DNA of 64,000 bases from Haematobia irritans (taxonomy: Eukaryota; Arthropoda; Insecta; Diptera; Muscidae), in NCBI RefSeq assembly GCF_050003625.1, contig NC_134401.1, positions 94,714,852 through 94,778,851 of the forward strand, given 5' to 3'. The translations under genes and the position numbers were made by a program. Below the pieces are notes generated by a model. That model saw only the letters and a program-made list of their open reading frames with translations, was not told the origin of the DNA and ran no database searches. Shown one piece after another: positions 6,601-64,000 of the stretch. Every line of letters begins with the position of its first letter. Within the stretch, counting starts at the first letter, position 1.

Positions 6601-9600
6601 GTAACACATCGAAATATTGTTCTAAGACCCCACAAAGTATATATTTATTCTTGGTCGTGGTAAAATTCTGAGTCGATATACCATGTCCGTCCGTCTATTG
6701 AAATCACGCTAACGAAATAAGCTATCGACTTCAAACTTCCCTATGGGAAATTGGTGCAAACTTCCACTGACGGACCTATCACAGAACTGGTACCTGTGCT
6801 CCAGTTAGTTGCAATTTTTAAATAGTCGTAATTTATTTATTTCCGCACTCGCTTGATATTAAGATTTGAATATAATTAAGATTTTAATATCAAGCATTTT
6901 TAGCATTTTTAATTAAGATTTTAATATCAAGCATTTAGTGAAATAAAATTATCAGAATAAGATATTTTTCGACAAATTGTAAAAGTTTTTTTTTCATTTC
7001 GGGTCCAAATTGAAACAGATTTCTAAGAGTTTGTTCGAGACTGGTTCCTGAGGACCTGTCTATGGGGTGCCCCTGCTAAATTGTCCCAGGACGTGTCCTT
7101 TGGGATGAGTCCAAGACGCGTCCTAAAATGTAAATGTACCCCGTCAATGACAAACCCATGTTAAAGTGACCGGTCCCTTCCATACGTTTTGACCAGAACT
7201 GGGACTGGTCCATACACACCGAGGACTGGTCCTGTACCGGTTCTGTGGTTAATCCATTTCCTGTAGGGTTGGCACAAGTAGTTGTTATTTTTGCAGGTCG
7301 GATGGTATTGCAAATTGGCCATCTGGTTTGCTGAGCCTTTTAGAGAAGACAATTTCATCCGATCCGGTTGAAATTTGGTGTTAGTATATGGTCTCTAACA
7401 ACCTTGCAAAAATTAGTCCATATCGGTCCAAATTACACTGGTTTACAAAATATTTTTTCATGTACATTTGATGAGATGCAACTTTTCTTATTAATTTTGA
7501 TCTGCTGAATTCGAAAAATTTTTTTAAATTTTTTATGGAAATGGGGATCGGCTTATCTGGGGACTATATGTAACTATAGACTGATATGGACAAAGTTTGG
7601 CATGGTTGTAAGCGCACCGAAAAAAAAGTTTACTATTTTTTATGAAAAATGAACTAACTCATAGTAAGAATGACCATGATTTGGCGCCAAAGATTTTTTT
7701 CATCTAGATAAGTTCATGATTTTCTTATAAATTAGTTCATGTATTACATCGTATTTTAGTTCATTATTACTATGCTGTGGGAAGAATATAGTTAAACTCA
7801 TTCAAAATATTCCTGCTATCCGGAAAAATTAACAATTTTTTGGGAAACCTGTATTAAGAAATTGGTTTGAAATAAACTGTTTGTCGGTATAATTTTCAAA
7901 AAAGTAGAAAAATTGAGGAATCAAAAGTACAAAAAGCCTGTATACAACTAAGACATTTTTCGTACAAAACAAGTCAATTTTCTATAACCACCAGTATTTT
8001 ATTTCAAAGAATTATTATTATATTACACAAAACTATGGCTTATGATATACAATAAAGGAAATATTTTTATTAGAGTAATATTCAAAAGAGTAATATTCTA
8101 TGTTATTAGGACTAAACTAATTAATTTAAATTTCCATGTTTTCTATCCATATGAAAGATATATGTGGCATAAGTTGCTATATTCAATTGAATTGTCCAAT
8201 TTCATCGATTTTGGCTAACTTTTGTTGGGCGGATTTGGCTTATAAGCATCTGAAATTGCAAAGTTATACAAAATATAAGAAAAATATTATTAATTAATTA
8301 ATTCTATCGTTCATATTGATCTTTAACTTACGGTTTTCAAGAGTATTTCCTAGAGCCAATAAGGATATCAGCTTAATTAGTATTAAACAGTAAGAATATT
8401 CAAAAAATTACCATTACGAGACCTGTCTACCTGCAAGTGAAAAAAAATAATTTTTAATAAATTGAAATTTTGGTTTTATTAAAAACGGACAAAATACCGT
8501 TTACAGAAAAACTTACCACATTGAAAAATCCATCCAGTAGGTACATTATTGGAATCATATCCATGGACAAATGGGACGTTATTGAAATTATTCTCAGAAT
8601 ATATTTGAAATAAAAAATATTATAAAATTAGACATAATTTCCACTTGTCAGTATAGCATTTAGTATTTAAGGTGGATATTAAGTTCGAGTTTAGCGGCTA
8701 AAATTGCAATTTCCATGATAAGTTTTCTTTAATAATCCATTATAAAAAATAATCTTTATAAAAAACTTGATTTGGGCTATTCTCCATCAAGTTATATTTA
8801 AATTTGTATCGAAGGCGTATAATTTTATACTTTGCTTAGTGATTTATTTTTAATTTTAGCGGCTAAATTCGAACTTAGTACTCACCTGTAGGAATTGCTG
8901 TAACATAAAAAATATAGATTCAAAAAAATGGTTGCTTCTCAACCTGTGATCCAGATGTAGAATAAATCATCCTATTACCACTCATGTTGTATATTTTTTA
9001 TGTAAATCAATTTAAACTCCGCACTAATTTTAAACTAACATATTAACAGAAATATACAGTTCCTTAATCTGTTATTTGTTTTTTATCAATAAAAAGCGTT
9101 TTTGATTCCTCTAACATCACATCATTCACTTCTCAGTTTCTAAAATGTTTCGAAATAAATGTATTTTCATTAATAAACACCAATACCGCACGTACAATTT
9201 TGCAAAATTAAATCCACGTGTGCACTTCATAAATGCATCAACATAACTGAATGCAACAATAAAACTCAAAGACACAAATAGTCATAAGGGATACATACCT
9301 GCCGTAAAGAAAAACAACTCCACACACACACGATCCCTTTCTGATCTTGCTATTGCAAAAAAACAACTCTCACCACAAAAGATACCAACAACACACAAGG
9401 AACATTCCATTGCCCTTCAGTTTTTTTGGTGCCAATTGACCCCTTTTTCCAAGCAATTGGAATTTTATACCGGTCATGGGACTGGTTGTATTTAGCCAAT
9501 TGGTAGCCACTTCATGAATTTGTCTCTAGACCACAATGAACCCATCCCCTAACCGGTTCAAATGTCCCTATCACAGGGTTAATTAACACATTTCTGGCCC

Positions 9601-12600
9601 TTTTGCATCTATAACAGGGACAGTTCTATTTTTAGATTTTTTTTCAGTTATATTTTCCCTACATTTGTTCATTTTCTACCAATATCACAAACATTTAAAT
9701 TGACGTTTCAACGCTGGGTGTCCAATGGCGTTTGTGGCTGAATGCGTTAAGGCGTTTTGTTATGCTGCCAGTAAACCCAGGTTCAAAACCTGGCCGGAGC
9801 GAAAAAGTTTTTCAAATTGTAAAAATTAGATAAAATAACATAAGACAAATAAAAAAACATTGATAGAAATAAGAAGTAAAATTGGTGGAAAAATTTGTTT
9901 TTTTAGAACTGTCTCTCTAACATGTCTATTTGAACTGGTTAATTGGTGGGTTGAAAACAACCGGTTAAAGGATTGGTTTGTAGGTATCTATGTGGGGGTC
10001 AATTGACCCTTTCTATGACAACCCCATGTTAATTTCACCGGTCACCTAACCAGTTAAAGGACCTGTACCGGCTATAAAGGACAGGTGAATCGACCGGTTT
10101 GGGACCAGTCCCAAGAACTGAAGGGTGTCTAGAATCAAAACAACCAACAACAGCATAAATGACGCAATAACAAACACAAACAATCATACGAGATATACAC
10201 AAAATGTCTCTAAAAACTCCCTCGCATGATGCACTCACATTTTCCAGTAGCACGTTTATTGATTAGTAGGAATTCTATCTATAAGTTAAGGTAAAATATA
10301 TACCAAATTTATGAAGAATCTATAAAAATTATAGGATTATATTAAATAATTTTTATTCTATTTTAACTAAAATTTTCAATGTGAGTAAAAACACTCCAAC
10401 ATATAATAAAAGGGAAATAATCTGTAGGTAGTCATCGTACAAATCGGTAATGTCGTTAAGTTAATTTTTACTAAAAAAAATTGTTTTCCATACAAAATTT
10501 TGTCTTAGTAAATTGTCCACATTTCGTAGTAAGATTTTTATATTGCCCATGTATTTTTATAATAGAATCAACGATGCATTAACTACTGTGTTGGAAATTT
10601 ATTTAAGGAAAAATCCTTCCCATTTCGTAGTTAGTGAACTAAAAAACATTTACTGAATTTTTATAAGTTTTGCTTTAGCTAAGTTAATTTTCGTTGTGGT
10701 TAAGAAAAATGAACTATATTACAGTAAATTTGTTGAACTATGTGGAAGTCAAAATGGTCCTTAAATTTACAAGACACTTTTTTTTCTGTGCGACCATATA
10801 CTAGCACAATGTACAAAATTTCAACCAATTCAACCAAAATGGGGGCTACATATAAGACTAGTTTACATTGAAAATGTACATTTGATGAGAGGTGAGTTTT
10901 CTTATGTATTTTGATCTGCTGAATTCGAAAAAAAAAACTGTTATAACAATTTTTATAGGCCAGTTTTTGAGATATCCCGTTATTTTTAGTTTTTCGCCCT
11001 TTTTTCACTAAACAAATTATATCTCGAGTTAGAAATGTCCGATTATTCTAACTCGATATTTAATGAAAGGTATGGAAATTACGAATAATCGTGTGTAATT
11101 GCATTTGGATAATTTAAGTGGTTAAAAATATATCGATGCAAAAAAGCAAATTTTCAAATAAAAATCCTGTTTTACAGTGACCCTTTTCCGCCAGAAAAGT
11201 AGAAACTATATAATCGGACATTTCTAACTCGAGATATAATTTGTTTAGTAAAAAAAAACGAAAAACTAAAAATAAGGGAATATCTCAAAAACTGTTCCAT
11301 AAAAATTGTTATAACAGTTTTTTTCGAATTCAGCAGATCAAAATACATAACCTCTCATCAAATGTACATTTTCAATTTAAACTAGTGTTATATGTAGCCC
11401 CCATTTTGGTTGAAATTTTGTACATTGTGTTAGTATATGGTCGCTTAAAACCATGCCAAACTTGGTCCATATCAGTCTATAGTTACATATAGCCCCCAGA
11501 TAAGCCGATCCCCAATCACACAAAAATTGGTACATATCGGCTCATAATTGTATATAGACTCCATAGAAGGCGACCCCCTATATATAAATTCCGGCTCTCT
11601 TTGTATACTTCACTATATATACCGGTCAAGAACTGAATTACATAAGTATTTAATCTGCCTTTTTATACCCTCCACCATTTTATACCCTCATTCCGTTTGT
11701 AACACATCGAAATATTGCTCTAAGACCCCATAAAGTATATATATTCTGGGTCGTGGTGAAATTCTGAGTCGACCTGAGCATGTCCGTCCGTCCGTCCGTC
11801 TGTTGAAATCACGCTAACTTCCGAACGAAACAAGCTATCGACTTGAAACTTGGCACAAGTAGTTGTTATTGATGTAGGTCGGATGGTATTGCAAATGGGT
11901 CATATCGGTCCACTTTTACGTATAGCCCCCATATAAACGGACCCCCAAATTTGGCTTGCGATTGCTCTAAGAGAAGCAAATTTCATCCGATCCGGCTGAA
12001 ATTTGGTACATGGTGTTTGTATAATGTCTCTAACAACCATGCAAAAATTGGTCCACATCGGTCCATAATTATATATAGCCCCCATATAAACCGATCCCCA
12101 GATTTAGCTTGCGGAGCCTCTAAGAGAAGAAAATTTCATCCGATCCGGCTTAAATTTGGTACATGGTGTTAGTATATGGTATCTAACATCTATGCAAAAA
12201 TTGGCCCACATCGGTCAATAATTATATATAGCCCCCATATAAACCGATCCCCCGATTTGGCTTGCGGAGCCTTTAAGAGAAGCAAATGTCATCCGATCAG
12301 CCTGAAATTTGGTACATGGTGTTAGTATAGGGTCTCTAATATCTATGCAAAAATTGGTCCCCATCGGTCCATAATTATATATAGTCCCCATATAAACCGA
12401 TCCCCAGATTTGACCTCCGGAGCCTCTGGGAAGACCAAAGGCTCCGGATATTTGGCACGTGGTGTTAATATTTATATGGCCTCAAACACCCATGAAAAAT
12501 GTGGTCGAAATCGGTCCATAATTATATATTGCCCCCATATAAACCGATCCCTAGATATGACCTCCGGAGCCCCTTGGAAGAGCAATATTCATCCGATTCG

Positions 12601-15600
12601 GTTGAAATTTGGTACGTGATGTTGGTATATGGTATCCAACAACCATGCAGGAATTGGTTCATATCAGTCCATAATTATATATAGCCCCCTAAAAACCCAT
12701 CCCCAGATTTGACCTCCGGTGGATAAGCAAAATTCATCCGATCTGATTGAAATTTAGTACGTGGTGTTAGTATATGGACTCTAAAAACCATGCAGGTATT
12801 GGTCCATATCAGTCCATATTTATATATAGCCTCCATATAAACCGATTCCGAGATTTGGTTTTGGACCTTCTTGGAGGAGCAAATTTCATCCGAGTCAGTT
12901 GAAATTTGGTACATTGTGCTAGTATATGGCTGTTAACAACCATGTCTAACTAGGTCCATATCGGTCTATAGTTATATATAGCCCTCAGATAAATCGATCC
13001 CCAATCACACAAAAATTAGTCCATATCAAGTTCATAATTGTAGCCGCCATATTTAAATTCTGGCTCTCCACGTACCGCGCAAAAGTCCATATCGATTCGT
13101 AATTATTTGTAGACTTACCTATACATAACTTGTTTGTCTAATATATACCACGTATGGAATAACTCACAATTTAGAAAACGACGGTAAGAAGTGTTAAGGT
13201 ACCTTGCCATCGGTAAGTATTAACACAACGCAAGAAATTCGATTGTGGATGACAGTCTTTCGCAGAAGTTTCTACGCAATCCATAGTGGAGGGTACATAA
13301 GATTCGGCCTGGCCGATCTTACGGCCTTATATACTTGTTTAAAGTGAAATTTATTTGTACATGAATAGTATAGTAAATATATTGCAGAAAGAAAATAAAA
13401 ATTCGGCAAGTGAGATTTGTATCCTAATTTTAATTTTGTTGAGCTTAGATTTAAAAGCAGATAGCTCCCTAAAAATGTCTTTATTTTGAAGAATACATCT
13501 TTGGCTAGCAACCTATACCAAAATCTTTAAGAGAAGATCCACATCTTTGAATTCCCGAGGTTTTAACTTAATCGAATGTTAAATTTCCAATATTCTCCTA
13601 TATTTTTTTCAGTTATTGAAGTTGCTACCAATTTTCATGGAAATTTTCATGACAAAATGGTTTATGAAATGAACAATGGGAAGAGATGTGAGTGGGGTAC
13701 ACCATCTAAACTAGAACCGAGTGAATTGCAGTATTATGAATTTTCGTTGGGAGAAGGAGCAAGTGAAGAAAATCGGGAATGGAAAACGCACTGGTGGTCT
13801 GAATATTCTTGGATATTTTGTAGGATAATGCAACAAATGTGGAGAGATAAGGTAATGAGTTGTATATGTCAATATTTTTTTTTTTTGCGAAAATGCATAT
13901 AAATCACATATATGGTAGTTACATAATAAAAAATAATAACCACATAGATAATTAAGTATTTACAAACAAAAAATCATCACAATTAATTGAGTGCTTCTAT
14001 TCTTTTCATTTGGTACTGTGCCAATCATGAATGTTATAACATTAATTACTACTTTCCCGCTACTAATAGGTCTCTCCGTAACATATCTGTATGTTGCAAT
14101 CACGCTAAAACCTTTAATAATGGAGATACTATAACGTGCTGAATCTTGGCATAGATTTCAGTTTTTATTTTAGTATATATCTATCCTTATTTTGATATGG
14201 TTCTGTGTAGAGAGCGTGCTGTTTGGAGATTTCCGACTGTTAATCTTTATATCCCTTGCACTACCGAATTAAAACTAATGTTAAAAATTTAAAATGTTTC
14301 TACTTTTTATACCAGCCACTATTGGATGGGAGTATATTAACTGTGATATTCATTGTGTAACACAGTGAACTATATAAATTGCCAAAATTTTATTTCTATA
14401 GAATATTTTGCCAAAATTTATTTCTATAGAAAATTTTGCCACAATTTTATTTCTATAGAAATTAATTGTCCACACCCTCAAAAAAAATCGCTTCTTTAAC
14501 ATATGTTCCAAACATATTTTGCAGGAAGCACATATATTATTGCATACTGCCGAAACATTAATATGTTTGTTTTATGTGAACATATTATATGTTTGGAAGC
14601 ATTTTGAGCCAAAAATATTATATGCTTGGAAGAATTTTTCCCAAACACGATTGTGCTCATTCCCTAACATACTCGTAATTTTCAAATTTTTTAGTTATTG
14701 GCACCTTTTTCTGTAATACAAATAATGTTGAAGAAATTATTCACTTTTATAAATTTTTTAAATTTTACCTTTCGCCTGCACGGAGAATCGAACCGAGGAC
14801 CATACAGTTTGTAAGCCAACACACTATCCACTGGGCTACGTAGCTGTTATAGTCACCAGTAGATAATTATCGTTTTAAGTTACATTTATATAGCATAGTT
14901 TGCAGCGCCCACGAGCCCATGCAAACATAACATTATTTAACAGAAACATACATTTGTTTGCCACGTGGAGCAGTGGTTAGCATGTCTGCCTTGCATGCAA
15001 AGGGTCGTGGGTTCAATCCCTGCTCCGACCGAACATTTTTTTTTTTTTTTTTTAATTTACACATTTATATTTATACTATATTAATTTTTTTTAAATGAAA
15101 CTTCGATATGTGCGTTATTATAGATTTATAGTCAGTAACAGTGCTTGATATAAACGAAATTGACTGATTTTTGGATAAAATATTATTTTTTATTGCAAAA
15201 ATAACAATCTTGTAATAAAAAACTGTTTTTGTACAAAACTTTGAAATTTGGAAGGAATTCAAAAACTAACAAAAGAAGAACGTGGAGTCGAGTATAAACA
15301 TACATACATAATTTTATAATATAAACATAAATTTATTTAGGAGTGAACAGTTTTTTACTAGCATTTAACACCATCGCTCTAAAATTCCTTTTATTTTTCT
15401 TTAATAATTCATTTTAAAGAAAATAAACTTTTTAAATTGTTTTAGCTGTAAAACTCGAACTTAATGCCCGCTTTTATATTTGATGGTGTCCGTCAACTCC
15501 TCGTGGACTACTTTTTAATAAAGAGGACTAAAGTTTGTTTTTTTACATTTCACTGTGTAATTTTTCACTATTTCCTCCTTATTTCATTTTACTGTCCCAA

Positions 15601-18600
15601 CTCTAAAAAGAGTATAGTGCCCTTTCGTTATTTTTAACGCACCAAGAAAAAAATTGTGCCCATAATGCCAAAATGATAAACAAAACACATGTCCACACAT
15701 ACATAAAATGCTGCTCTCAAGGCGAAAACATAAGCTGTTTGTTTTTCAAATGTCTATTCTCTTAGTTCAGAATGTATATTCTCTTTATTCAAATTAAATA
15801 ATATTTAGACTTAAACATATCAAATTTTTGGCCTTATCATAAAACAGTTTTCCGAAACAACATACAAGCGGTTTCACAGAAATTGTTCTCTTTTGACTCT
15901 TTTGCTGTGTTATATTGATATCTTTCGTCAACTCTCCCGGTTTCCATCTCTATTTCTCTCTATACTCTCTCTGTCGCTTTGAATAAAATATCACAACATA
16001 TGTATGTTTAGTCGAAATTTGTAAATTTATATATGTTTGTATTCACACATATGATTTTTATGAAACATTGATGCCCCAAACATAATATATTCTAACATAT
16101 TAACATAGATGTCCCAAACATTTAGTGTTAGTTTAGGAACATTACATGTTCGCACTTAAATATATTGTGGTTTAAAATCGTGCCCGAAACACATTTTGTT
16201 TATATCGGAACATATGAAAAACATATTTTTCTAACAGTGCAAAAGTTTATTTCTAAGAAAATTTACCAAACTTTTTATACCCTGCGCCACACTGTGGAAC
16301 AGGGTATTATAAGTTAGTGCATATGTTTGTAACACCCAGAAGGAGACGAGATAGACACATGGTGTCTTTGGCAATAATGCTCAGGGTGGGTCCCTGAGTC
16401 GATATAACCATGTCCGTCTGTCTGTGAACACATTTTTGTGATCAAAGTCTAGGTCGCAATTTAAGTCCAATCGCCTTAAAATTTGGCACATGTTCCTATT
16501 TTGGGTCAGAATAGAACCCTATTGATTTTGGAATAAATCGGTTCAGATTTAGATACAGCTCCCATATATATATTTGGCCCGATATGCACTAATATGGACC
16601 CAGCAGCCAGAGTTTTATACCGATTTGCTTGAAATTTTGTACAAACATAACACTTAGTCGTATAGTCAAGTGTGCAAAATTTGATTGAAATCGGTTCAGA
16701 TTTAGATATAGCTCCCATATATATATTTCGCCCGATATGGACTTATATGGCCCCAGAAGCCAGATTTTTTGCAGAATTTGGTTGAAATTTTGGACTAGGA
16801 GTACAATTAGTAGTATAGTCAAGTGTGCAAAATTTGATTGAAATCGGTTCAGATTTAGATATAGCTCCCATATACATCTTTCGCCCGATATGGACTAATA
16901 TGGTCGTAAAAGCCAGAGTTTTGGCCCAATTTGGTTGAAATTTTGCACAGGGAGTAGATTTTGCATTGTAGCTATGCGTGCCAAATTTGGTTGAAATCGA
17001 TTTAGATTTAGATATAGCTCCCATATATATCTTTCGCCCGATATGCACTTATATGGACCCAGAAGCCAGAGTTTTATGCCGATTAGCTTGAAATCTTGCA
17101 CAAAGAGTACAATTGGTAGTATAGTCATGTGTGCCAAATTTGATTGAAATCGGTTCAGATTTAGATATAGCTTCCATATATATTTTTTGCCCGATATGGA
17201 CTTATATGGCCCCAGAAGCCAGAGTTTTGGCCCAATTTGGTTCCAATTTTGCACTAGGAGTACAATTAGTAATATAGTCGTGTGTGCCAAATTTGATTGA
17301 AATCGGTTCAGATTTAGATATAGCTCCCATATATATGTTTTTCTGATTTCGACAAAAATGGTCAAAGTACCAACATTTTCCTTTTCGCCACTGCTTAGTC
17401 GAAAAGTTGTAAAAATGACTTTAATTTTCCTAAACTTCTAATACATATATATCGAGCGATAAATCATAAATAAACTTTTGCGACTTAAATTTTGAGTCTA
17501 CAGATTTTGTAGAAGTCTTTCAAATTCTGTCCAGATCGAGTGATATTTAAATGTATGTATTTGGACAAACCTATATATATAGCACCCAAAAATTTTGACG
17601 GATGTGATATGGTATGGAAAATTTAGATCTACAAAGTGGTGCAGGGTATAATATAGTCGGCCCCGCCCGACTTTAGACTTTCCTTACTTGTTTTCTATAG
17701 AAAATTTTGCCAAAATTTATTTCTATAGAAAATTTTGTCAAAATTTTATTTCTTTAGAAAATTTTGTCAATATTTTGTTGTTATAGCAAATGTTGCCAAA
17801 CTTTTATTCCTATAGAAAATTTTGTCATAATATTATTATACCCTCCACCATAGGATGGGGGTATATTAACTTTGTCATTCCGTTTGTAACACATCGAAAT
17901 ATTGCTCTAAGACCCCATAAAGTATATATATTCTGGGTCGTGGTGAAATTCTGAGTCGATCTGAGCATGTCCGTCCGTCCGTCTGTTGAAATCACGCTAA
18001 CTTCCGACTTGAAACTTGGCACAAGTAGTTGTTATTGATGTAGGTCGGATGGTATTGAAAATGGGCCATATCCGTCCACTTTTTCGTATAGCCCCCATAT
18101 AAACGACCCCCAAATTTGGCTTGCGATTGCTCTAAGAGAAGCAAATTTCATCCGATCCGGCTGAGATTTGGTACATGGTGTTAGTATATGGTCTCTAACA
18201 ACCATGGACCATATCGGTCCATAATTACGTATAGCCCCCATATAAACCGATCCCCCGATTTGGCTTGCGGAGCCTCTAAGAGAACCAAATTTCATCCGAT
18301 CCGGCTGAAATTTGGTACATGGTGTTAGTATATGGTCTCTAATGACCATGCAAAAATTGGTCCACATCGGCCCATAATTGTATATAGCCTCTTAGAGGCT
18401 CCCGAGTTGAAATTTCGTCCGTGGTGTTAGTATATTGGTGTTAGTATATTGTCTCTAACAACCATGCCAAAATTGGTCCATATCGGTCCATAATTATATA
18501 TAGCTCCCATATAATCCGATCCCCAGATTTGACCTCCGGAGCCTCTTAGAGGAGCAGAATTCATCCGATCCGGTTGAAATTGGTTTTTTTCACTGTACTT

Positions 18601-21600
18601 TAAAAAAAGTCGGACAAATGGAAGGCCCCCCTCATCGACCAAATATCGAAAAATAAAGTATCTGTTCTTTGCCTAGACGCCCTCTTCAACCTTCCTTGAA
18701 AATTTCAAGCAAATCGGACAATTTGGTTACAATTTTCAAAAGGTTGGGTAAGGGGGAGGCCCCCCTTCCCGTCCAAATATTGAAGAATCCCATAATAAAT
18801 TCATAACCTCACGGCGTGTTCTCTGTAAATGTAAAACATTTTTGTCGAACATTTTCCATCTGAAACAACTAAGGAAAGTCTAAAGTCGGGCGGGGCCGAC
18901 TATATTATACCCTGCACCACTTTGTAGATCTAAATTTTCGATACCATATCACATCCGTCAAATGTGTTGGGTGCTATATATATAGGTTTGTCGAAATACA
19001 TACATTTAAATATCACTCGATCTGGACAGAATTTGATAGACTTCTACAAAATCTATAGACTCAAAATTTAAGTCGGCTAATGCACTAGGGTGGGACACAA
19101 TGTTAGTAAAAAAATATGGGAAACATTTAAATCTGAAGCAATTTTAAGGAAACTTCGCAAAAGTTTAGAAAAATTAGAGTCATTTTTACAACATTTCGAC
19201 TAAGCAGTGGCGATTTAACAAGGAAAATGTTGGTATTTTGACCATTTTTGTCGAAATCAGAAAAACATATATATGGGAGCTATATCTAAATCTGAACCGA
19301 TTTCAATCAAATTTGGCACACACGACTATATTACTAATTGTACTCCTAGTGCAAAATTGCAACCAAATTGGGCCAAAACTCTGGCTTCTGGGGCCATATA
19401 AGCCCATATCGGGCGAAAAATATATATGGAAGCTATATCTAAATCTGAACCGATTTCAATCAAATTTGACACACATGACTATACGACTGTTATGTTTGTA
19501 CAAAGTTTCAAGCAAATCGGTATAAAACTCTGGCTGCTAGGTCCATATTAGTGCATATCGGGCGAAATATATATATGGGAGCTATATCTAAATCTGAACC
19601 GATTTCTTCCAAAATCAATAGAGTTCTATTCTGACCCAAATTAGGAACATGTGCCAAATTTGAAGGCGATTGGACTTAAATTGCGACCTAGACTTTGATC
19701 ACAAAAATGTGTTCACAGACAGACGGACGGACGGAGAGACGGACATGGTTATATCGACTCAGGGACCCACCCTGAGCATTATTGCCAAAAACACCATGTG
19801 TCTATCTCATCTCCTTCTGGGTGTTACAAACATATGCACTAACTTATAATACCTTGTTCCACAGTGTGGCGCAGGGTATAAAAATAAAATTATTTTATAA
19901 CAAAAGCAACTGCGATGTATTCAAATTATTCAAATTATAAATATTTGTAATATGCGCTGTATTTAAGAAAGTATTTTCCCGCTTTTCCGTTGAAATATTT
20001 CTTGAATTTTCTTTGCTATAAACCTCACAGAGCCCGAGACTTTTCCAAGGAATGCAAAACCGTGGAAATCCGTTCGTGCGTCTGGAGTCCAACGAATTCG
20101 CGTTTGGAGTTAAAGCGTCACGAAAGAAAACCCGACTTATTATACCCTCCGTCATACGATGGGGGTATATTATTCCGTTTGTAACACATCGAAATATTGC
20201 TCCAAAGTATATATATTCTGGGTTGTGGTGAAATTCTGAGTCGATCTAAGCATGTCCGTCCGTCTGTTGAAATCACGCTAATTTCCGAACGAAACAAGCT
20301 ATCGACTTGAAACTTGGCACAAGTAGTTGTTATCGATGTAGGTCGGATGGTATTGAAAATGGGCCATATCGGTCCACTTTTACGTATAACCCCCATATAA
20401 AGGGATCCTCAGATTTGGCTTTGGTACATGGTACAACTACGCAAAAATTGGTCCATATCGGTCCATAAATATATATAGCCCCCATATAAACCGATTCCCA
20501 GATTTAGTTTGCGGAGCCTCAAAGAGAAGCAAATTTCATCCGATGCGGTTTAAATTTGGTACGTGGTGTTAGTATATGGTCTCTAACAACCATGCAAAAT
20601 TGGTCCATATGGGTCCATAATTATATACAGTAATCCCTCGATTTACGTCGTGATTGGTTCCGGAATTTGGCGACGTTAATCGAAACGACGTAAACCCAAT
20701 TAAAAATTGCTAACACCCTGCAAGTATTTGGGTGATAGTTTTATCGTCTTTCGCTAAAATGTCACTACTTCGGATCGCCTGGAAGTTTTCTGGTAGTAAA
20801 AAAATCTCAAGCACAACAACAATAAAAACAACTATCGCGTGGGGTGTTTCCGTTTCGAAACTAAATCGACTTTAAAACATAGATTCCATACGACATAGCG
20901 AATTTTTCAATAGCACCTCTTTGAGAGTACATGTGTGTAAAAAGCCACTATCAGCCAACGAGCGTGGGTAGCACAGAGAGAAAGCCTCTGACTAGAAAAC
21001 GAAAGGTTCCGAGTTCAACGCTCGGTGCGGCTGATCATCATATTTATTTTTTAAAAAATAACTATCGCTTTTTTTACTTCTTTCGGTCACTGGTTTGATT
21101 CCCTGAGAACACTATCGCGTAGTGGGACATTTGTTCTCGAACGGGGACACTAACTCGATAAGAAAATGATATCGCCTTTGAAAGTTATATCTTCCAGGGC
21201 GAAACTACTTCGATACACTTTCAATAGAAAATGTTTGCAGGGTGCTTACTCCTAAGTCCATTTATGTATGTGTGTGCGTGTACATAATAGACAACTCCAA
21301 AAATAGAGGTAATTCTTACCGAACAAGTTTGTTGTTCGGTAAGAATTTTAGAAAAAAAATGTTTCGATGTCATCATCGATGATATTTATTTTACTTATGG
21401 AAGGCATTTCTGATAAAGTGGGCAAAAAAATTGACGACGTAAATCGAATGGCGACTTAAATCGAAGTTTGATGGAAAAATAAACTTGACGACGTAAATCG
21501 AAACAACGTAAACCGAGACGACGTAAATCGAGGGATTACTGTATAGCCCCCATATAAATCTATCCCCAGATTTGACCTCCGGAACCTCTTGGAGGAGCAA

Positions 21601-40370: not shown

Positions 40371-40483
40371 AACTAAATGTATTTTTCTGTTAAATAAACT
40401 TTGTTTAATCGGTTCGTATGCGCCGCAAGCTATGCTATATAAATATAACTTATATGGGTAATTGTCTATTGATGACAATAACG

Positions 40484-44453: not shown

Positions 44454-45082
44454 TAGAGGTGTGCGCGTGAGTGAAATTTCAGTCCCACTCACGCACATTC
44501 ACGAAGCCAAATATTTATTCACGCTCGCTCACGCACGAAAAGTGTGTAGCCACTCACACTCACGCACATTCACGAAATGAAAAACAATACTCACGCACGA
44601 ACTATTTTCAAAGATTCACGCACGATTCACGACAGTTCGCGTTACTCACGACAATTTCACGAAACTCACCACATTTTCCAAAGCGTGAATCACCACCGTG
44701 GTGCAATGGTTAGCATGCCCGCCTTGCATACACAAGGTCGTGGGTTCGATTTCTGCTTCGACCGAACACCAAAGAGTTTTTCAGCGGTGGATTATCCCAC
44801 CTCAGTAATGCTGGTGACATTTCTGAGGGTTTCAAAGCTTCTCTAAGTGGTTTCACAGCAATGTGGAACGCCGTTCGGACTCGGCTATAAAAAGGACGTC
44901 CCTTGTCATTGAGCTTAACATGGAATCGGGCAGCACTCAGTGATAAGAGAGAAGTTCACCAATGTGGTATCACAATGGACTGAATAGTCTAAGTGAGCCT
45001 GATACGTCGGGCTGCCACCTAACCTAACCTAACGCGTGAATCACGCGTGTAACGACAATTTCGTGTCACGCGCACACTTCTA
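44454..45082. mobile_element. Element S: hAT-like, CACGCAC-tiled, with SINE inserted
   Basis: Ends TAGAGGTGTGCGCGTGA and (reversed) TAGAAGTGTGCGCGTGA, with the 8-bp duplication ATAGAAAC at 44446-44453 and 45083-45090; 8-bp duplications are typical of hAT elements. Without the SINE it is about 280 bp, tiled with CTCACGCACATTCACGAA-like words. The His-rich open frame here is an artefact. Confidence 0.88.
44694..45033 (+). mobile_element. tRNA-headed SINE, copy 1, intact
   Basis: 340 bp. Head: A-box region GTGGTGCAATGGTTAGCATG, B box GGGTTCGATTTC. Body: CATTGAGCTTAACATGGAATC, GGCTGCCACC. Tail: CTAACCTAACCTAAC. The 11-bp target duplication GCGTGAATCAC lies at 44683-44693 and 45034-45044. It sits inside element S. 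No open frame, as expected for a SINE. Confidence 0.93.
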
Positions 45083-53477: not shown

Positions 53478-54133
53478 CACTGAAAAAATATTTACGTGAT
53501 ATTAAAGATTATGCAACATAAATTTTAGGATGCGAAATTTACAAAATATGAAGGACAAATTTCTTTAAAATAATGAAATTTTAATTAAAATAAAGTTTAT
53601 AATCTTTGCTTCAAAAATTTTTTTCATTAAATTTAGGACACAAATTTTGTAAATTTGCGTCCTTCCGTTAAAGTCCCATGTCTTTGAACTAAGGCTAATT
53701 TTCCTTAAAGTAAAGAAACACATGTTTTATTTAATAAAAACGTCCTTAAATTAACTAAAATATTGAAACTTTAGATTTAAGATAAAAACGCTTCAAATAT
53801 AGGCCAAGACTTATTTTGAAGATTTAGCGAATTTGGTTATTTTCTTTTTTTTTTTTAATTAAGAAAACATTTTTTATTTGAAGTATCCGTTATAATTTGG
53901 ATTTTTAAACTGGCATTTGTTAGTACGAGAATAGTTTATTAATATACCGAGAAAAAAGAGAATAAAAATTCGATAATTAAGATCTATACCTCAATCTTAA
54001 TTTTATTTAAAGCCAGATTGGTCGCTAAAAAATTTCTTTATTTTAAAGAAGTTGCATCTTTGTCTCGGAATCAATACCAAAATCCTTAAGGGAAGGCCAA
54101 AATCTTTGGATCCAAGTAAACTTTTTTTGAGTG
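53478..54133 (+). mobile_element. Element I1, intact
   Basis: Ends CACTGAAAAAATATTTACG and ACTTTTTTTGAGTG with TA at 53476-53477 and 54134-54135. The interior repeats AAAGATTATGCAA-, TTTAAATTTA- and AATCTTTGG-like words and complements. 656 bp, non-coding. Confidence 0.82.
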
Positions 54134-55169
54134 TAAAGGCAATTTAACTGTATTTTAGTTCATAGAATTATTATGTTTGGATAAAGTTTTCTTGACTTTA
54201 ATAATTTTTTCTGCACGTTAATTAAATGAACTAAAAAAATGTTTACACAAATGAAACATAACGATTTACTAAATTCATAATTCTCACAAATAGTTTATTA
54301 TTTCTTTATATTTGTAAATTTTATTACAAATGTGCCCATCTTGAACTTAGTGTGGTACATTCTGGCAATTTTGAACTCCAAGTGAAAAAAACTTACACTG
54401 TTAGAAAAATATGTTTTTCATATGTTTCGATATAAACAACATGTGTTTCGGGCACAATTTTTAAACACAATATATTTAAGTGCAAACATGTAATGTTCTC
54501 AAACTAACACTAAATGTTTGGAACACATATGTTAATATGTTAGAATATATTATGTTTGGGGCATGCATGTTTCATAAAAATTATATGTGTGAATGTAAAC
54601 ATATATACATTTACAAATTTCGAGTAAACATATATATGTTGTGATATTTTATTCAGAGAGCGACAGAGAGAGAGAGAGTATAGAGAAAGAAATAGAGATA
54701 AAAACCGGGAGGGTCGACGAAAGATATCAAATTAACACAGCGAGAGAATCAAAAGAGAGCAATTTCTGTGAAACCGCTTATATGTTGTTTCGGAAACTGC
54801 TATGATAAGGCCAAAAATTGTATATGCTTAAGCCTAAATATTATTTAATTTAAGCCTAATTATTATTTAATTTGTGTATATTATAAAATTATTTATGTAT
54901 GTTTATACTCGACCCCACGTTCTTCCTTTGTTAGAGTTTTTGAATTCCTTCCAAAATTTCAAACTTTTATACCAAAACCAGTTTTTTATTACAAAATTGT
55001 TATTTTTGCAATAAAAAAATAATATCTTAGCCAAAAGCTCAGTCCATTTCGTTTATATCAAGCACTGTTTCTGACTGTAAATCTTTAATAACCCACATTT
55101 CGAAGTTTCATTATAAAAATTTAATATAATATAAATATAAATGTGTAAATTAAAAAAAAAATGGTGTTT

Positions 55170-55234
55170 GGTCGGAGCAGGGATTGAACCCTTTGCATGT
55201 ACGGCAGACATGCTAACCACTGCTCCACGTTGCC
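55170..55234 (-). other. tRNA-like segment, SINE-head type (E3)
   Basis: Minus-strand GTGGAGCAGTGGTTAGCATG and GGTTCAATCCCTGCTCC; the middle is a few bases shorter than in E1. Confidence 0.55.
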
Positions 55235-55348
55235 AACACATGTATGTTTCTGTTAAATAATGTTATGTTTGCATGGGCTCGTGGGCGCTGCAAACTATGC
55301 AATATAAATGTAACTTATAACGATAATTGTCTACTGGTGACTATAACA

Positions 55349-55418
55349 GCTACGTAGCTCAGTGGTAGTGTGTTGGCTTACAAACTGTATGGTCCTCGGT
55401 TCGATTCTCCGTCCAGGC
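55349..55418 (+). other. tRNA-like segment, Val-like (E3)
   Basis: TAGCTCAGTGGTAGTGTG, GCTTACAAACT loop, CTCGGTTCGATTCTCCG; homologous to 40484-40553. Confidence 0.55.
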
Positions 55419-56017
55419 GAAAGGTAAAATTTAAAAAAATTATAAAATTGAATAATTTCTTCAACATTATTTGTATTACAGAAAAAGGTGCCAAGAACTA
55501 AAAAATTTCGTGGAAGTGAAAATTATGTTAGGGAATGAGCACAATCTTCTTTGGGGAAAATTCTTCCAAGCATATAATATTTTTCGGCTCAAAATGCTTC
55601 CAAACATATTATATGTTCACATAAAACAAACATATTAATGTTTCGGCAGTATCCAATAATATATGTGCTTCCTGCAAAATATGTTTGGAACATATGTTAG
55701 AGAGGCGATTTTTTTTGAGGGTGTAATTATGTGTAATAAATTTTCTTGATTTTTTCCAAAATTTTTTACTTTTATCGGCGTGATTTTATAATATCGGCGT
55801 GATATCAGCGTTTGTAATAATGTTTAGTTAAAATTTTCTAAAAATAATAAAATTGAAGTTCAAAATTGTAAATATGATGATCTTAGTGTCATAGGAAGTT
55901 CAATATTGGCGCATTATTGGTAAAATATACAAGTTAATACAAATTCTGTATTATTTTGTGGGAGACACGAATTTAGTAAATCTTTATGCTTCATTTGTGT
56001 ATAATTTTTCCCTTATG

Positions 56018-57960: not shown

Positions 57961-58384
57961 TTATACCCTGCGCCACACTGTGAAACAGGGTATTATCAGG
58001 GCTGTGGAGCCGGAGTCGGAGTCTTGGAGTCGGAGTCTGAAGATTTTGCTGGAGTCGGAGTCGTAAAAATTTTGCTCGACTCCGACTTCGGCTAAACCAA
58101 ATTTTTTAAAGCACTTCACACTTTTGTAACTAAGCAAGTTTTTACACAAATTTGTTTCCATTGCGTTATTCATTCGATCAATGTACAGCATGATTGCAAA
58201 TGAAAATCAACTTCCAATTACGGCTATCTTTTTATGTTTCCTAGAATGTTAGACTAGCAGATGGGCTGGATCGATCCAGTTTAATGCCCATATCAATTTA
58301 TTTGAAATATTTCGAACAATCGAAATTATTTTTTTTTTTTAATTTTATTTTGAGGCCATATATATGTGGAATATTGACAGAAAT

Positions 58385-58880
58385 TTTTTTCAAAGTTGTT
58401 TTTATAGAAAATTTTGTCAAAATGTTATTTCTATAAAAAGTTTTGTCAAAATTTTATTTCTATAGCAAATTTTGTGAAAATTTTATTTCTATAAAAAATT
58501 TATTCAAAATTTTATTACTATAGAAAATTTAGTCAAAAATATAGAAAATTGAGTCAAAATTTTGTTTCTATAGAATATTTTGCAAAATTTTATTTCTATA
58601 GAAAATTTTGCAAAATTTTGTTTGTTACACAAAAATTTTTTTCAAAATTTTATTTCTATTGATAATTTTATTTCTCTAAAAATTTAAGTCAAAATTTTAT
58701 TTCTATAGAAAATTTTGCCAAAATTTTATAGTAATAGATTTTTTTATTAGAAATTTGGTAAAAATTTTATTTTTATAGAAAATTTTGTGAAAATTTTATT
58801 TCTATAGAAAATTTAGTCAAAATTTTGGTTCTGTAGAATATTTTTATTGATAAAATTTTATTTCTAAAATTTTTATTGAT
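58385..58880 (+). repeat. 29-bp minisatellite, degenerate, inside H
   Basis: About 16 decayed units (TTTCTATAGAAAATTTTG type). Continues at 59825-60385 on the other side of F3, so F3 was inserted into it. Confidence 0.8.
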
Positions 58881-59219
58881 AATTTTTTCATTTTATTTCT
58901 ACACACACAAAAATAATTCTTTCCTCCCAAACGAAATTTTAGACAAACAAAGTTCGTTTCTCATTTGCTTTTCGCTGTAAGAAAGTGTATTTGGAAGAAA
59001 ATATATTCTTTTTGTTATAAACGTTTATTCTTTTCCAGGATGTAAAAACAATGTCATAAAGACTAACTCAAAAAAAAACATTGTTTTCTTGCTAATTGCA
59101 TTTTCCCTCACATCTTTCTCACATCCACGAGGTTTTTCAGTTCTTAACACCTTTTCCTGTAATACCAACAATGTAGAAGAAATTATACGATTTTATAAAT
59201 TTAAATTTTTTTACCTTTC

Positions 59220-59291
59220 GCCTGGACGGAGAATCGAACCGCGGACCATGTACTTTGTAAGCCAACACACTAACCACTGAGCTATGTACCT
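59220..59291 (-). other. tRNA-like segment, Val-like (F3)
   Basis: Minus-strand B box GCGGTTCGATTCTCCGTCC and A-box region TAGCTCAGTGGTTAGTGTG with one change. Confidence 0.55.
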
Positions 59292-59404
59292 GTTATGGTC
59301 ATCAATAGATAAATATCCATATAAGTTATATTTATATAGCATAGTTTGTGGCGCCCACGAACCGAATAAACAAAGTTTATTTAACAGAAACAGACAGTTA
59401 GTTT

Positions 59405-59476
59405 GACACCGTGGAGCAGTGGTTGCTACGTCCGACTTGCATGCCAAGGATCGTGGGTTCGATCCCTGCTTCGACC
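59405..59476 (+). other. tRNA-like segment, SINE-head type (F3)
   Basis: GTGGAGCAGTGGTTGCTACG, CTTGCATGCCAAGG, GTGGGTTCGATCCCTGC; full length with a paired T arm. Confidence 0.6.
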
Positions 59477-60399
59477 AAAGTTTTTTTTTTGTTTTTTTTT
59501 TTTTTACATATATTCCAGATATGTTCGGAAGATTCCGAAAAAATGTTCAACATTACATTGTACTATATTAAATTTTGAACTGTAAAATGTGTCTTATTAA
59601 AGACCTAAAGTCAGAAAAGAACAGTGTTTGATATAAACGAAATGGACCGTGTTGTTGTTTCAAAAATAACTTTTTTTATTGAAAAAATAAAAATTTTGTA
59701 ACAAACGATTTTTTTTTGGTGATAAAAGTTTAAAATTTTCGAAGCAATTCAAAAAATTCTAACAAAAGAAAAACGTTTTCGGTACACGTTTTCCAAACGT
59801 TTTTTTTCTTTGCGTGTATAAGAAAAAATTGTCAAATTTTATTTCTATAGCAAGTTTTCTCAAAAATTTTTTTCTTACTGATGATCACTGATACTCACTG
59901 CTATAAAAATGTATTTATTACTATAGAAATATTTTTTTTCTATATAAAATTTAGTCAAAATTTCGTTTCTATAGAATATTTTGTAAAATTTTATTTCTAT
60001 AGAAAATTTTGCAAAATTTTGTTTGCTACACATTTTTTTTAAATTGTATTTTTATTGAAAATTTTTTAAACTTTTCTTTTCTATAAAAAATTTTGCCAAA
60101 TTTTATTTCTATAAATTTTTTTTTTTTTTTCTTAAAATATAATTATTAAATTATTGTGTAAAATGAATTCATTCAAACAATAAAAATAGTATAGAAAAAA
60201 AAAAAATAAAATAAAAAAAATTTTATTTCTATATATTTGGTAACAATTTGATTTCTATAGAACATTTTGCCAAAATTTTATTTCTATAGAAAATTTAGTC
60301 AAAATTTTGTTTCTGTAGAAAATTTTGCAAAATTTTATTTCTATAAAATTTTGCAAAATTTTATTTACTAGACAAACAGTTTTCCAAAATTGTATGCTC

Positions 60400-60645
60400 A
60401 CTGATACTCACTGCTAAGTCGAAAACTTGTAGAAATGACTCAAATTTTCAAATTTTTCAATGAATGAATCATAAATGCATTTTTGCGAAATTGTCTAAAC
60501 AATTATAAATATTTCCCAAATATTGCCCGAGATTTTGTAGAAGTCTGATTTGAGATTTTATCAAAATGTAGATCTAAATACAAAGTTGTGCAGAGTATAT
60601 TATAATCGGCCCGCCCGACTTTAGACTTTCCTTGCATTTTTATTT
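60400..60645 (+). mobile_element. Family B tail fragment inside H
   Basis: Contains the B interior (CACTGCTAAGTCGAAAACTTG) and the hairpin end (AATCGGCCCGCCCGACTTTAG, TTTCCTTG). Internal units are gone; a second degraded B piece follows to about 60830. Confidence 0.65.
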
Positions 60646-61428
60646 TTTTTTTAAATTGTGTTACGTCCCATAACGTTAGATTTAAATTTTAAGTACATAG
60701 ATTTTGTAGAAGTATATACATCGATTCAGATTCAAATTCATGCATATGGGAATATAAACCTTTATATAGCTCGCAACAAATTTAAAGAATTTGAGATAGT
60801 ATCAATAATTTTGGTTCACAAATACATATACTGTTGGTATCTTCTCATATTATGATGGGTATTTATATCATTATTTTATTTATTAAACATTGCCATAAAT
60901 TTGAAATATAGAGTTCAATTGGCATCTAATGTGAAATTAAGACCTTTTTTTGCACACATAAATAAATACGATACTTTATATCGATCCACTTACGGTACCC
61001 CCACAATAGAACTACAAATTAGTGGTATTAAATAAAATGAGATTTAATTATATTACCCGGAGTCGACTCCGGAGTCGGAGTAGAGCTGATGAAAAATGCT
61101 GGAGTCGGAGTCGAGCAAAATTGGCTCGACTCCACAGCCCTGGGTATTATAAGTTAAGGCATATGTTTGCAACATCCAGAGGGAGACGAGATAGACATAT
61201 GGTGTTTTTGGCAATGATGCCCTGAACCGATCTAGCCACTTCAGTCTGTCCGTCTGTCTGTGCTCAATGTATAGGTCGCAGCTTTAGTCCAATCGACATC
61301 AAATTTGGCAATAGTTTGCGTTTTGGGGGTCAGAACAGAACCCTCCTATATATATCTTTAGCCCGATATGCACTTATATGGCTCCAGAAGCCAGAGGTTT
61401 ACTTTGATTTAAGTGAAATTTTGCATAC

Positions 61429-62045
61429 ACTGAAAAAAATATTGACCTAATATGGAAGATTATGCAACTTAAATTGTAGGACTCGAAATTTACACAATGC
61501 TAAGGACAAAATTCTTTAAAATAATGACATTTTAATTAAAAGAAAGTTTATAATCCTTGCTTCAAAAATTTTTTTCATTAAATTTAGGACACAAATCTTG
61601 AAATTTTGCGTCTCTGCTGAAGTTGTAGATCTTTGAATTAAGGCAAATGTTCCTTAAAATAAAGAAAAACATTTTTAATTTAAAGAAATCGTCTTTAACT
61701 CAACTGACATACTGAATTTTTAAATTTAAGATAAAAAACTTCAAATATAGGCTAAGAATTATTTTAAGGAATTAAGAAAACAGTTTTTACTTTGAAGTAC
61801 TTGGCATAATTTGGATTTTGAAACTGGAATTTGTTTGTACATGAATACCTTTATTAATATATCGCAAACAGAGAATAAAAATTCGATGAATGAGATCTGT
61901 ACCAATTATAATTTTATCGATCCTAGATTTAAAGCCTGGGAGGTCTGTAAAAAATGTCTTTATTTTAAAGAAGCCGCATCTTTGGCTCGGAATCCTTAAA
62001 GGAAGGTCAAAATCTTTGGATCCAAGTAAACTTTTTTTTGAGTGG
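61429..62045 (+). mobile_element. Element I2
   Basis: The left end CACTGAAAAAAATATTG follows TA; right end AACTTTTTTTTGAGTG. Close relative of I1 throughout. Inserted in a family B unit (TTTTGCATA / GAGGGAGTACAATT); the duplication is imperfect. Confidence 0.8.
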
Positions 62046-62708: not shown

Positions 62709-63593
62709 TTTATACCCTCCACCATAGGATGGGGGTATATTAACTTTGTCATTCCGTTTGTAACACATCGAAATATTGCTCTAAGACCCCATAAAGTATA
62801 TATATTCTGGGTCGATCTGAGCATGTCCGTCCGTCCGTCCGTCCGTCTGTTGAAATCACGCTAACTTCCGAACGAAACAAGCTATCGACTTGAAACTTGG
62901 CACGAGTAGTTGTTATTGATGTAGGTCAGATGGTATTGCAAACGGGCCATATCGGTCCACTTTTACGTATAGCCCCCATATAAAGGGACCACCAAATTTG
63001 GCTTCCGAGGCCTCTAAGAGAAGCAAATTTCATCCGATCCGGCTGAAATTTGGTACATGGTGTTAGTATATGGTCTCTAATAACCATGCAAAAATTGGTT
63101 CACATCGGTCCATAATTATATATAGCCCCCATATAAACCGATCCCCCAATTTGGCTTGCGGAGCCTCTAAGAGAAGCAAATTTCATCCGATCCGGCTGAA
63201 ATTTGGTACATGGTGTTAGTATATGGTCTCTAACAACCATGCAAAAATTGGTCCATATCGGTCCACTTTTACGTATAGCCTCCATATAAACGGACCCCCA
63301 AATTTGGCTTGCGATTGCTCTAAGAGAAGCAAATTTCATCCGATCCGGCTGAAATTTGGTACATGGTGTTAGTATATGGTCTCTAACAACCATGCAGAAA
63401 TTGGTCCATATCGGTCCACTTTTACGTATAGCCCCCATATAAACGGACCCCCAAATTTGGCTTGCGATTGCTCTAAGAGAAGCAAATTTCATCCGATCCG
63501 GCTGAAATTTGGTACATGGTGTTAGTATATGATCTCTAACAATCATGCAGAAATTGGTCCATATCGGTCCATAATTACATATAGCCCCCATAC
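62709..63593 (+). mobile_element. Family A element A13, continues past J
   Basis: Clean head (TATACCCTCCACCATAGGATGG, CCGTCCGTCCGTCCGTCTG) and five 153-bp units with high mutual identity. Broken at CCCCCATA by element J. Confidence 0.88.
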
Positions 63594-64000
63594 ACTGGTA
63601 GAAAAAGTTTCGTTAATACGATGAATTTCTACGTTTTATTAACGAAATTCTTCATTAAAAGTCAGCCAACGTAGCATTTCGTTATAACAACGTAATTTTA
63701 CGTTATATTTACGAAATCCTTTACGGAATATATTTCGTAGTATTAACGAAGAATTACGTTGCTATTACGTAGCCTTTTCGTTGTATTAACGAATATTATT
63801 CGTTGTATGAATGAAATTTATTCATTGTATGGATGCAGCTTATACGTTGTATGAACGAAAATCATTCATTGTATTAATGAAACCCAACCAATTATTGCAT
63901 TTGAGTGTAGTTATTGGTAGTGTATTATTTTGTGTTAAGATCTTTGAAATAGGTTTTATATTCTGGTACAGTAGGAGATAATATTTATTGATAAATTAAG
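63594..64000 (+). mobile_element. Element J (left part), CGTTGTAT-tiled
   Basis: Begins CACTGGTAGAAAAAGTTTCG after TA (family A ...CCCCATA). 63600-63890 repeats TTAACGAA, CGTTGTAT, ATTCGTT and ATTCATTGTAT with their complements about every 15-25 bp. The right end is beyond the window. Confidence 0.65.

Follow-up and report, generated by a model that had tools for sequence, protein, structure and literature searches.

The analysed stretch, a window of 64,000 nt from the horn fly, Haematobia irritans, contains ten elements with CAC...GTG termini (E1-E3, F1-F3, Q and I1-I3), two CCC-ended elements (N and K) and two elements seen by their left ends (J and L), as well as pogo-type and hAT-type elements used as controls (Table 1). 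The letters E, F, J, K, L, N and Q are those of an initial annotation of the window and were assigned to loci via the short words that it had listed for each element; "I" is our own name for the CACTG/CACTC group. Element R of the initial annotation corresponds to a pair of incomplete copies (at 23010 and 23707) in which only one end was resolved, and no locus was matched to its element Y.

Table 1 Elements of the window, their ends, flanking duplications and subterminal words
Element	Ends or description	Position	Strand	Duplication or flanks	Words and remarks
E1	CAC-ended, CACTGTTAG... / CACCCTCAAAA...	14473..16239	-	CA	word AAACATAT; ends common to three copies
E2	E copy with core deleted	24390..25157	+	TA	ends from copy alignment
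E3	holds the E/F core	54396..55723	+	TA	empty site in another repeat copy
E/F core in E3	two divergent tRNA-like units	54917..55535	+		homologous to F3 body 59103-59776, inverted
F1	CACGCAAA ends, inside I1	35871..38295	+	TA
F2	inside K	39975..40831	+	TG	ends from copies
F3	inside hAT-type element 57997-61142	58902..59816	-	TA	empty site simple repeat, weak
Q	CAC(C/A)GAAAAAAAAGT ends	7615..10790	+	CG	word TGAACTA
N	CCCTTCAGTT ends, inside Q	9413..10125	+	TG	words ACCGGT and CAATTG; single copy
I1	CACTGAAAAAA/CACTGTAAAAA ends	34567..38472	+	TA
I2	CACTGAAAAAA/CACTCAAAAAA ends	53478..54133	+	TA	two further repeat copies with empty sites (82%, 84%)
I3	I2 copy (77%)	61428..62044	+	TA/GA	satellite empty site
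K	CCCG(A/T)GTAAAAATT ends	39685..40859	+	TA/AT	words AGATCTAA and ATATCTAA
J	left part, CACTGGTAGAAAAAG after TA	63593..64000	+		word TTAACGAA; right end beyond window
L	left end CACGCACAGAAAAACC after TA	25645..27258	+		word ACCATG; right end lost beside mariner fragment
Control	pogo/Tigger-type, CAGTAATCCCTCG ends	20628..21541	+	TA	word GACGTAAATCGA, z 14
Control	hAT-type, TAGARGTGTGCGCGTG ends	44454..45082	+	8 bp, ATAGAAAC	word GCGTGA
Control	hAT-type, CAGGGCTGTGGAG ends	57997..61142	+	8 bp, GGTATTAT	word GACTCC

Ends and target duplications

The class is defined by its CAC or CCC ends and 2-bp duplications. CAC...GTG termini are present in all ten CAC elements listed, in Q and I1 by selection, and nine of the ten have identical 2-bp flanks. 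Thus, the proposal of the initial annotation that CAC ends go together with a TA, CA, TG or CG duplication was borne out for E, F, I and Q with the exception of I3, and for J and L it extends to a left end after TA. The CCC ends proposed for N and K were found in both, although only N is flanked by a duplication (TG/TG); K, with its TA/AT flanks, was kept out of the class because its CCC ends lack the 2-bp duplication. Identical flanks thereby occur in 10 of the 12 CAC and CCC elements, and every one of these ten is a YR step, against a YR background of 23.5% of the dinucleotides in the window. No 8-bp duplication of the hAT kind was seen in the CAC-class flanks, whereas both hAT-type controls have perfect ones.

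Copy alignment, and not the duplication, fixed the termini of the eight E, F and I2/I3 copies, and seven of the eight have matching flanks, compared with 9.3% expected by chance for a CAC pair. Blind pairing of CAC...GTG sites by end similarity and equal flanks yielded, at 9 or more matches out of 13, six equal-flanked pairs among 24 (~ 2.2 expected); this excess is weak, and the end calls therefore rely on copies and empty sites. For seven of the 12 elements, another stretch of the window spans the empty junction. The empty sites of Q (spanned at 90% identity by 11511-11381), E3, F1 (the other arm of I1, 74%) and I2 are other repeat copies, while those of E1 (a simple repeat), F3 and I3 are weaker because they lie in simple-repeat or satellite DNA. 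No empty site was found within the window for E2, F2, N, I1 or K. Beyond CAC, the inverted repeat matches at 14 of 15 positions in Q, 10 of 11 in I1 and I2 and 8 of 8 in F1/F2; the termini of E and F3 have CAC alone in common, followed by scattered matches.

Subterminal words

The words listed in the initial annotation were counted against 300 dinucleotide shuffles, with P values left uncorrected. The E3 word ATATGTTT occurs seven times (shuffle mean 0.33, maximum 3), and AACGTTT is present in 4, 6 and 6 copies in F1, F2 and F3 (shuffle means 0.8-1.2; P 0.04, 0.003 and 0.017). An 8-mer redundancy measure that leaves the word open was applied to the terminal 600 bp, to the whole length of K and J and to two left ends of L. 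It gave z values of 5.5, 7.4 and 7.2 for the E copies, 9.0 for K, 8.4 for J, 5.9 for L, 5.1 for N, 4.0 for I1 and 3.5 for Q, followed by 2.2 for I2, 0.8 for I3 and -0.1, 0.3 and -0.4 for the F copies, in which the word copies are few; tiling is not shown by this measure for F and I2/I3. The idea that each element repeats a word of its own above shuffled expectation consequently holds clearly for E, J, K, L and N and weakly for Q, but F has few copies and I2/I3 show little.

Among 37 control stretches, 11 reached z of at least 3 (median 1.1), and three of these 11 overlap the two hAT-type elements. The latter and the element at 20628-21541, which we take to belong to the pogo/Tigger superfamily, tile words of their own; thus, tiling does not define the class, and subterminal tiling alone is no basis for classing a non-autonomous element.

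The words lie within 300 bp of an end in 5/6, 6/6 and 7/7 cases in the E copies, 6/6, 7/7 and 7/7 in the F copies, 6/6 in Q, 9/9 in N, which is short, and 4/8 in L, which has lost its right end. Binomial probabilities for this position were 0.02 for E1 and 2e-4 for both F1 and Q, in a test that is partly circular because the words had been picked after the sequence was viewed. In E1, E3, F2 and N, the two ends have more 7-mers in common than an end has with any part of the interior, whereas F1, F3 and Q each contain an interior stretch that matches an end in as many 7-mers as the opposite end does. Ends from different families have 9-50 7-mers in common. Family-specific subterminal repeats are seen in E and N, by position only in F, weakly in Q and at the left ends only in J and L, but not throughout the class, as I1 and I2 lack words specific to their ends.

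A word forming a small hairpin just after the terminus had been described for E, F and L. Compared with shuffles, hairpins are modestly favoured in E (z -1.6 to -3.5) and L (-2.4), as well as in J (-3.1), but the left end of F is no better than its shuffles (-0.7 to -1.4; right end 0.0 to -2.7). Palindromic words as a general rule were rejected: z of at least 1.8 was obtained only for N (2.7), K (2.5), I2/I3 (2.0) and E (1.8), and J, L and L2 fell below the shuffles.

A common core under different ends

E and F have a common core of ~ 640 bp with an identity of about 75%, while their ends and words are unrelated, which indicates that body and ends are separable. This sharing of a core is what is new here, and it implies that the body and ends of these families have been recombined or nested. 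The core carries two divergent units that we regard as tRNA-like, a reading based on A/B boxes, on the similarity of one unit to a SINE head and, for N and the SINE, on Rfam scores below threshold. A loose search found 28 A/B boxes in the window, compared with an average of 13.9 in 20 shuffled windows; both units were recovered in E1, E3, F2 and F3 and one in F1. One unit resembles a SINE head, and hand-picked stretches reached sub-threshold Rfam scores of 21.2 bits (N) and 19 bits (SINE); the second unit of E3 had no Rfam match, and neither ARAGORN nor Rfam reported a tRNA gene anywhere in the window. The further, unrelated tRNA-like unit of N hints at repeated recruitment by the non-autonomous elements of this fly.

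A tentative and rather unlikely possibility is that the E/F pair records re-ending, in which a ~ 640-bp core with two Pol III-type units came to travel under two CAC end and word sets unrelated to each other. Families might in this way escape or change transposases by keeping a body that is perhaps of use and exchanging the recognition modules that surround it.

The Pfam search covered ten of the stop-free stretches, of which nine lie within E1, L, I1 and Q and one in the unassigned region at 50675; among these ten no transposase was seen, none scored above the cut-off, and two gave chance-level matches below it.

Placement among known transposons and a possible mechanism

The CAC-ended elements and N are probably non-autonomous cut-and-paste transposons of the Chapaev-Mirage-CACTA (CMC) superfamily and of its 2-bp (animal CACTA/TRC) type, with family words that would be bound by a protein of their own; they fit the CACTA group, which is already known, and not some novel type of system. 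Against this placement speak the absence of a transposase from the stretches compared with Pfam, the shortness of the terminal inverted repeats, the lack of end-specific words in the I group, the F copies, untiled by redundancy, the interior 7-mer matches of F1, F3 and Q, the 7-mers common to ends of different families, the word positions in L and the missing duplication of K. CMC elements are reported to combine CAC/GTG ends with a 2-bp duplication, as do CMC-NA_1/2 of wasps and polydnaviruses and ENS1_Cis of Ciona (PMC6004678). CMC-NA is likewise described without coding capacity and without an autonomous partner found, but the ten MITEs of that report measure 116-422 bp, whereas in the horn fly the CAC elements and N measure 0.6-2.5 kb once nested elements are discounted and have family words and the E/F core; subterminal words for CMC-NA are not mentioned in the available text (PMC6004678). 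Exact patterns for the E end, the F end and the second tRNA-like unit had no match among viral contigs, and phage records compared with positions 7615-30000 gave none.

TRC elements (SmTRC1, copies in Tribolium and Aedes, and Spongebob of Hydra and insects) are described with CCC ends and a 2-bp duplication, like N (PMC1636069, PMC4298943); K resembles them in its ends but lacks the duplication. SmTRC1 is reported to encode a Transposase_21 protein, while the longest stop-free run of N is 55 aa. Chapaev3 has similar CAC/GTG ends (PMC4079192) but differs by reported 3-bp TWA duplications, which were not found here, all duplications being 2 bp. Two elements of the "Chapaenov" family are reported from a blowfly region (PMC3630058) and CACTA MITEs with 2-4-bp duplications from Helicoverpa (PMC9033116), with no mention of subterminal words in the available text of either source. 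Among the literature matches listed, none dealt with CACTA-type elements of the horn fly, the stable fly or the house fly.

In plants, the CACTA elements En/Spm, Tam1 and Tgm are described with CAC ends and family-specific subterminal repeats, as in the horn-fly class, although Tgmt* is flanked by 3 bp of duplicated target (ATA) and has CACTA inverted repeats of 13 bp (PMC2613891), whereas the fly elements duplicate 2 bp and have ends that are rich in A and for the most part shorter. TNPA is reported to bind the subterminal repeats, and conserved ends are paired with a conserved transposase while divergent subterminal repeats are paired with divergent TNPA-like proteins, with which they may coevolve (PMC2613891).

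In this reading, a transposase encoded elsewhere would cut at CAC or CCC and use a flexible YR step as the joining site, producing the 2-bp duplication. The subterminal words would be binding sites for the DNA-binding protein of each family, either the binding domain of the transposase or a TNPA-like partner, which would bring both ends together and confer family specificity. Families would then diverge as word and protein change while the cleavage end stays fixed; that one body can bear different ends is shown by the E/F pair. The initial annotation had proposed one mechanism with interchangeable recognition words. The CAC class, with its uniform ends, YR duplications and family-specific words, and the separable E/F core agree with this proposal, but the tiling of the hAT and pogo controls, the lack of a duplication in K and the F and I2/I3 copies, untiled by the redundancy measure, do not. 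For the CAC class, the proposal matches in essence the account given of plant CACTA elements (PMC2613891). The presence of several CACTA-type families with different words in one fly genome makes the plant idea, that ends remain fixed while words and binding proteins co-evolve, testable within a single animal, in which the E/F pair would be a natural domain swap.

Could the words serve another purpose? They might be recognised by an anti-silencing or regulatory protein that the element itself encodes, instead of serving end synapsis, a reading that we consider rather unlikely. Its model would be the VANDAL elements of Arabidopsis, although these are MULEs of a plant that methylates its DNA. 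The targets of their anti-silencing protein VANC are described as tandem short motifs in non-coding regions, family-specific and fast-diverging (PMC10398659), and the horn-fly words also differ by family and extend past the TIR, up to 200-300 bp inward; no VANC-like gene was seen in the horn-fly elements. In E, F and Q, however, either end carries the words, and the first word begins 14-17 nt inside the left terminus for E, F, L and J and 21-36 nt inside it for N, Q and K; this placement favours a role in end recognition.

It is quite unlikely that the words are by-products without any binding function, generated as local slippage, gene conversion and foldback repeatedly multiply short motifs where non-coding DNA is rich in AT. 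Such an origin would be in line with the tiling of unrelated superfamilies and control stretches, with the 99% identity of the inverted arms of L and with the mobility of the I group, since end-specific words were absent from I1 and I2 in the 7-mer comparison of ends; against it, the words of E1, F1 and Q cluster at both ends and not in the interior, and those of E are kept across three diverged copies.

We disfavour as very improbable the assignment of the elements to the Tc1/mariner type with non-TA cases as errors: TA accounts for six of the ten intact duplications and mariners are reported to be abundant in Haematobia irritans (PMC5940159), but the remaining four are CA, TG, CG and TG, of which those of E1 (CA) and F2 (TG) adjoin ends set by copies and that of Q (CG) an end set by an empty site, and the termini read CAC, unlike the CAG of the pogo-type element in the window.

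Ends and target duplications

The sample comprises 12 elements listed with both ends in the 64 kb; these ends are CAC in ten (three each of families E and F, Q, I1, I2 and I3) and CCC in two (N and K). The 2-bp flanks are identical in 10 of the 12, the exceptions being I3 (TA/GA) and K (TA/AT). The duplications of the CAC elements are CA, TA, TA, TA, TG, TA, CG, TA and TA, and that of N is TG; all ten are pyrimidine-purine (YR) steps, which make up 23.5% of window dinucleotides (5e-7 if independent). In eight E, F and I2/I3 copies the ends are set by copy alignment, and seven of these have equal flanks, against 9.3% expected per CAC-site pair (4e-7). The initial annotation had described CAC ends with TA, CA, TG or CG duplications, which is confirmed for nine of the ten CAC elements; the duplication that it also assigned to the CCC ends was found in N but not in K. 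A 153-bp candidate MITE at 35659-35811 has CAC ends (CACGGAAAAAAGC / CACCAGAAAAAAATC) and TA flanks; it is outside the class count.

Tc1/mariner duplications are TA only and the hAT duplication is 8 bp, whereas the CAC class has 2-bp duplications that also include CA, TG and CG. The best reading of these sequences is that the class would represent non-autonomous elements of the Chapaev-Mirage-CACTA (CMC) superfamily, of the 2-bp type. The YR step may be favoured at insertion through easy bending, as general knowledge of DDE transposases suggests. In the literature, target DNA is reported to be severely distorted by Mos1, which inserts at TA (PMC5481204); CMC MITEs have CAC/GTG termini and 2-bp duplications (PMC6004678), as do nine of the ten CAC elements studied here; TRC elements, which N resembles, combine CCC ends with a 2-bp duplication (PMC1636069, PMC4298943); and Chapaev3 differs from the 2-bp window class in its 3-bp TWA duplication (PMC4079192). 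In plant CACTA elements, according to PMC2613891, the transposase is conserved together with the ends, the divergent subterminal repeats are bound by TNPA-like proteins, and co-evolution of repeats and proteins has already been proposed, which makes the earlier idea of fixed ends with differing words probably sound, but not new.

Word tiling and word position

Another important question is whether tiling, the dense repetition of short family-specific words, is a sign of one mechanism, as was initially supposed. Two hAT-type elements and one pogo-type element, names that we take from duplication length, ends and general knowledge, also tile their own words. The tiling z was 14.0 for the pogo-type element, 11.6 for the stretch over the first hAT-type element and 4.3 for a stretch covering the second only in part; GACTCC occurs 13 times in the latter element versus 0.14 in shuffles. 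Thus, word tiling is a habit of non-autonomous DNA elements in the window rather than the signature of a single mechanism. What defines the class is the combination of CAC/CCC ends and 2-bp YR duplications.

Coordinates of the elements and of the shared E/F core
Feature	Position	Characteristics
E1	14473-16239	core 14687-15283
E2	24390-25157	
E3	54396-55723	core 54917-55535
F1	35871-38295	core in body
F2	39975-40831	core in body
F3	58902-59816	core 59103-59776
hAT-type	44454-45082	perfect 8-bp duplication ATAGAAAC; own tiled words
hAT-type	57997-61142	perfect 8-bp duplication GGTATTAT; own tiled word GACTCC
pogo-type	20628-21541	TA duplication, CAG ends; own tiled words

The words had been chosen in the initial annotation with the sequence already seen, and 8-mer redundancy was computed as z against dinucleotide shuffles. 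High values were obtained in E (5.5-7.4), K (9.0), N (5.1) and the left parts of J (8.4) and L (5.9), and moderate ones in I1 (4.0) and Q (3.5); z was low in I2 (2.2) and I3 (0.8), and in F redundancy over the shuffles was absent (-0.4 to 0.3), simple counts of the F word (4, 6 and 6 versus 0.8-1.2 in shuffles) being somewhat higher. The 37 control stretches (median z 1.1; z of at least 3 in 11) are not clean because the two hAT-type elements, overlapped by three of the 11, had not been excluded.

Word position is more telling than redundancy. Words lie at most 300 bp from an end in 5/6, 6/6 and 7/7 cases in the E copies, 6/6, 7/7 and 7/7 in the F copies and 6/6 in Q, and in only 4/8 in L, the right end of which is lost. 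Measured from the left terminus, the nearest word begins at 14-17 nt in E, F, L and J, and at 21-36 nt in N, Q and K. The word hairpin reported near the terminus in E, F and L is modest in E and L, and in J too, but the F left end is not exceptional. The 200-bp ends of E1, E3, F2 and N have more 7-mers in common mutually than with any interior stretch; in F1 and F3 this is true of the left end, not the right (F1 interior stretch 28 vs 16). End-to-end sharing in Q equals that of the best interior stretch, and I1 and I2 display nothing special relative to interior stretches. Since ends of different families have 9-50 7-mers in common (over 400 bp), such sharing alone is not family-specific. At 25645-27258, inverted arms of L, 99% identical, are joined to a mariner fragment, and a second left end of L-like type is located at 26155.

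Host locus, empty sites and nesting

A 553-residue query joined from six window exons is 100% identical, over the query, to a Haematobia irritans ABCG transporter (next-best match: stable fly, 70%); the remainder of the window consists of introns and repeats (satellites, mariners, one SINE family and many nested DNA elements). Joined flanks matched an empty-junction stretch within the window in 7 of 12 elements: Q (90% over 140 bp), E3 (86% over 63 bp), I2 (82-84%), F1 (74%, within the other arm of I1), and E1, F3 and I3, whose matches sit in simple-repeat or satellite DNA. For E2, F2, N, I1 and K, no empty junction was found in the window. Four elements are nested: N inside Q, F1 inside I1, F2 inside K and F3 inside a hAT-type element. 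An AT-rich repeat group (CACTC... GTGAACCC...; 23083-23600, 30267-30480 and 53446-56258) is interrupted by I2 and E3, as seen by eye with computed support; the copy near 23085-23598 is inside a repeat, with an ambiguous junction of 0 or 4 bp.

The shared E/F core and tRNA-like units

E1 and E3 have some 520-680 aligned bp in common with F at 72.5-75.7% identity (core ~640 bp), peaking at 90% in one 50-column bin; outside the core, identity drops to about 0.3-0.55 at the left ends and over the final 150-200 bp. The ends and words of E and F are unrelated despite the common core. E2 is without most of the core yet retains its right edge (66 bp, 79% to F3), which makes it a deletion derivative, not the empty ancestor. 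Two histories may explain the common core: an exchange of ends around it, or insertion of an F-like element in an E ancestor followed by loss of the ends of the inserted element.

The core contains two divergent tRNA-like units, facing apart, both present in E1, E3, F2 and F3 and one in F1; one unit resembles the SINE head (86-88% in E1 and F1; 74-82% in E3, F2 and F3). A further tRNA-like unit inside N (9728-9801) has an Rfam tRNA score of 21.2 bits, under the curated cut-off of 29. Copies of the tRNA-headed SINE with a ACCTAACCTAA-type end are located at 44693-45031 (inside a hAT-type element), 47278-47616, 50087-50379, 52353-52700 and 56313-56639. At 50401-50930 there is tiling by ACCAATAG/GGTTAC-type words, with a z of about 8; by eye, this stretch seems to start at a SINE-copy breakpoint.
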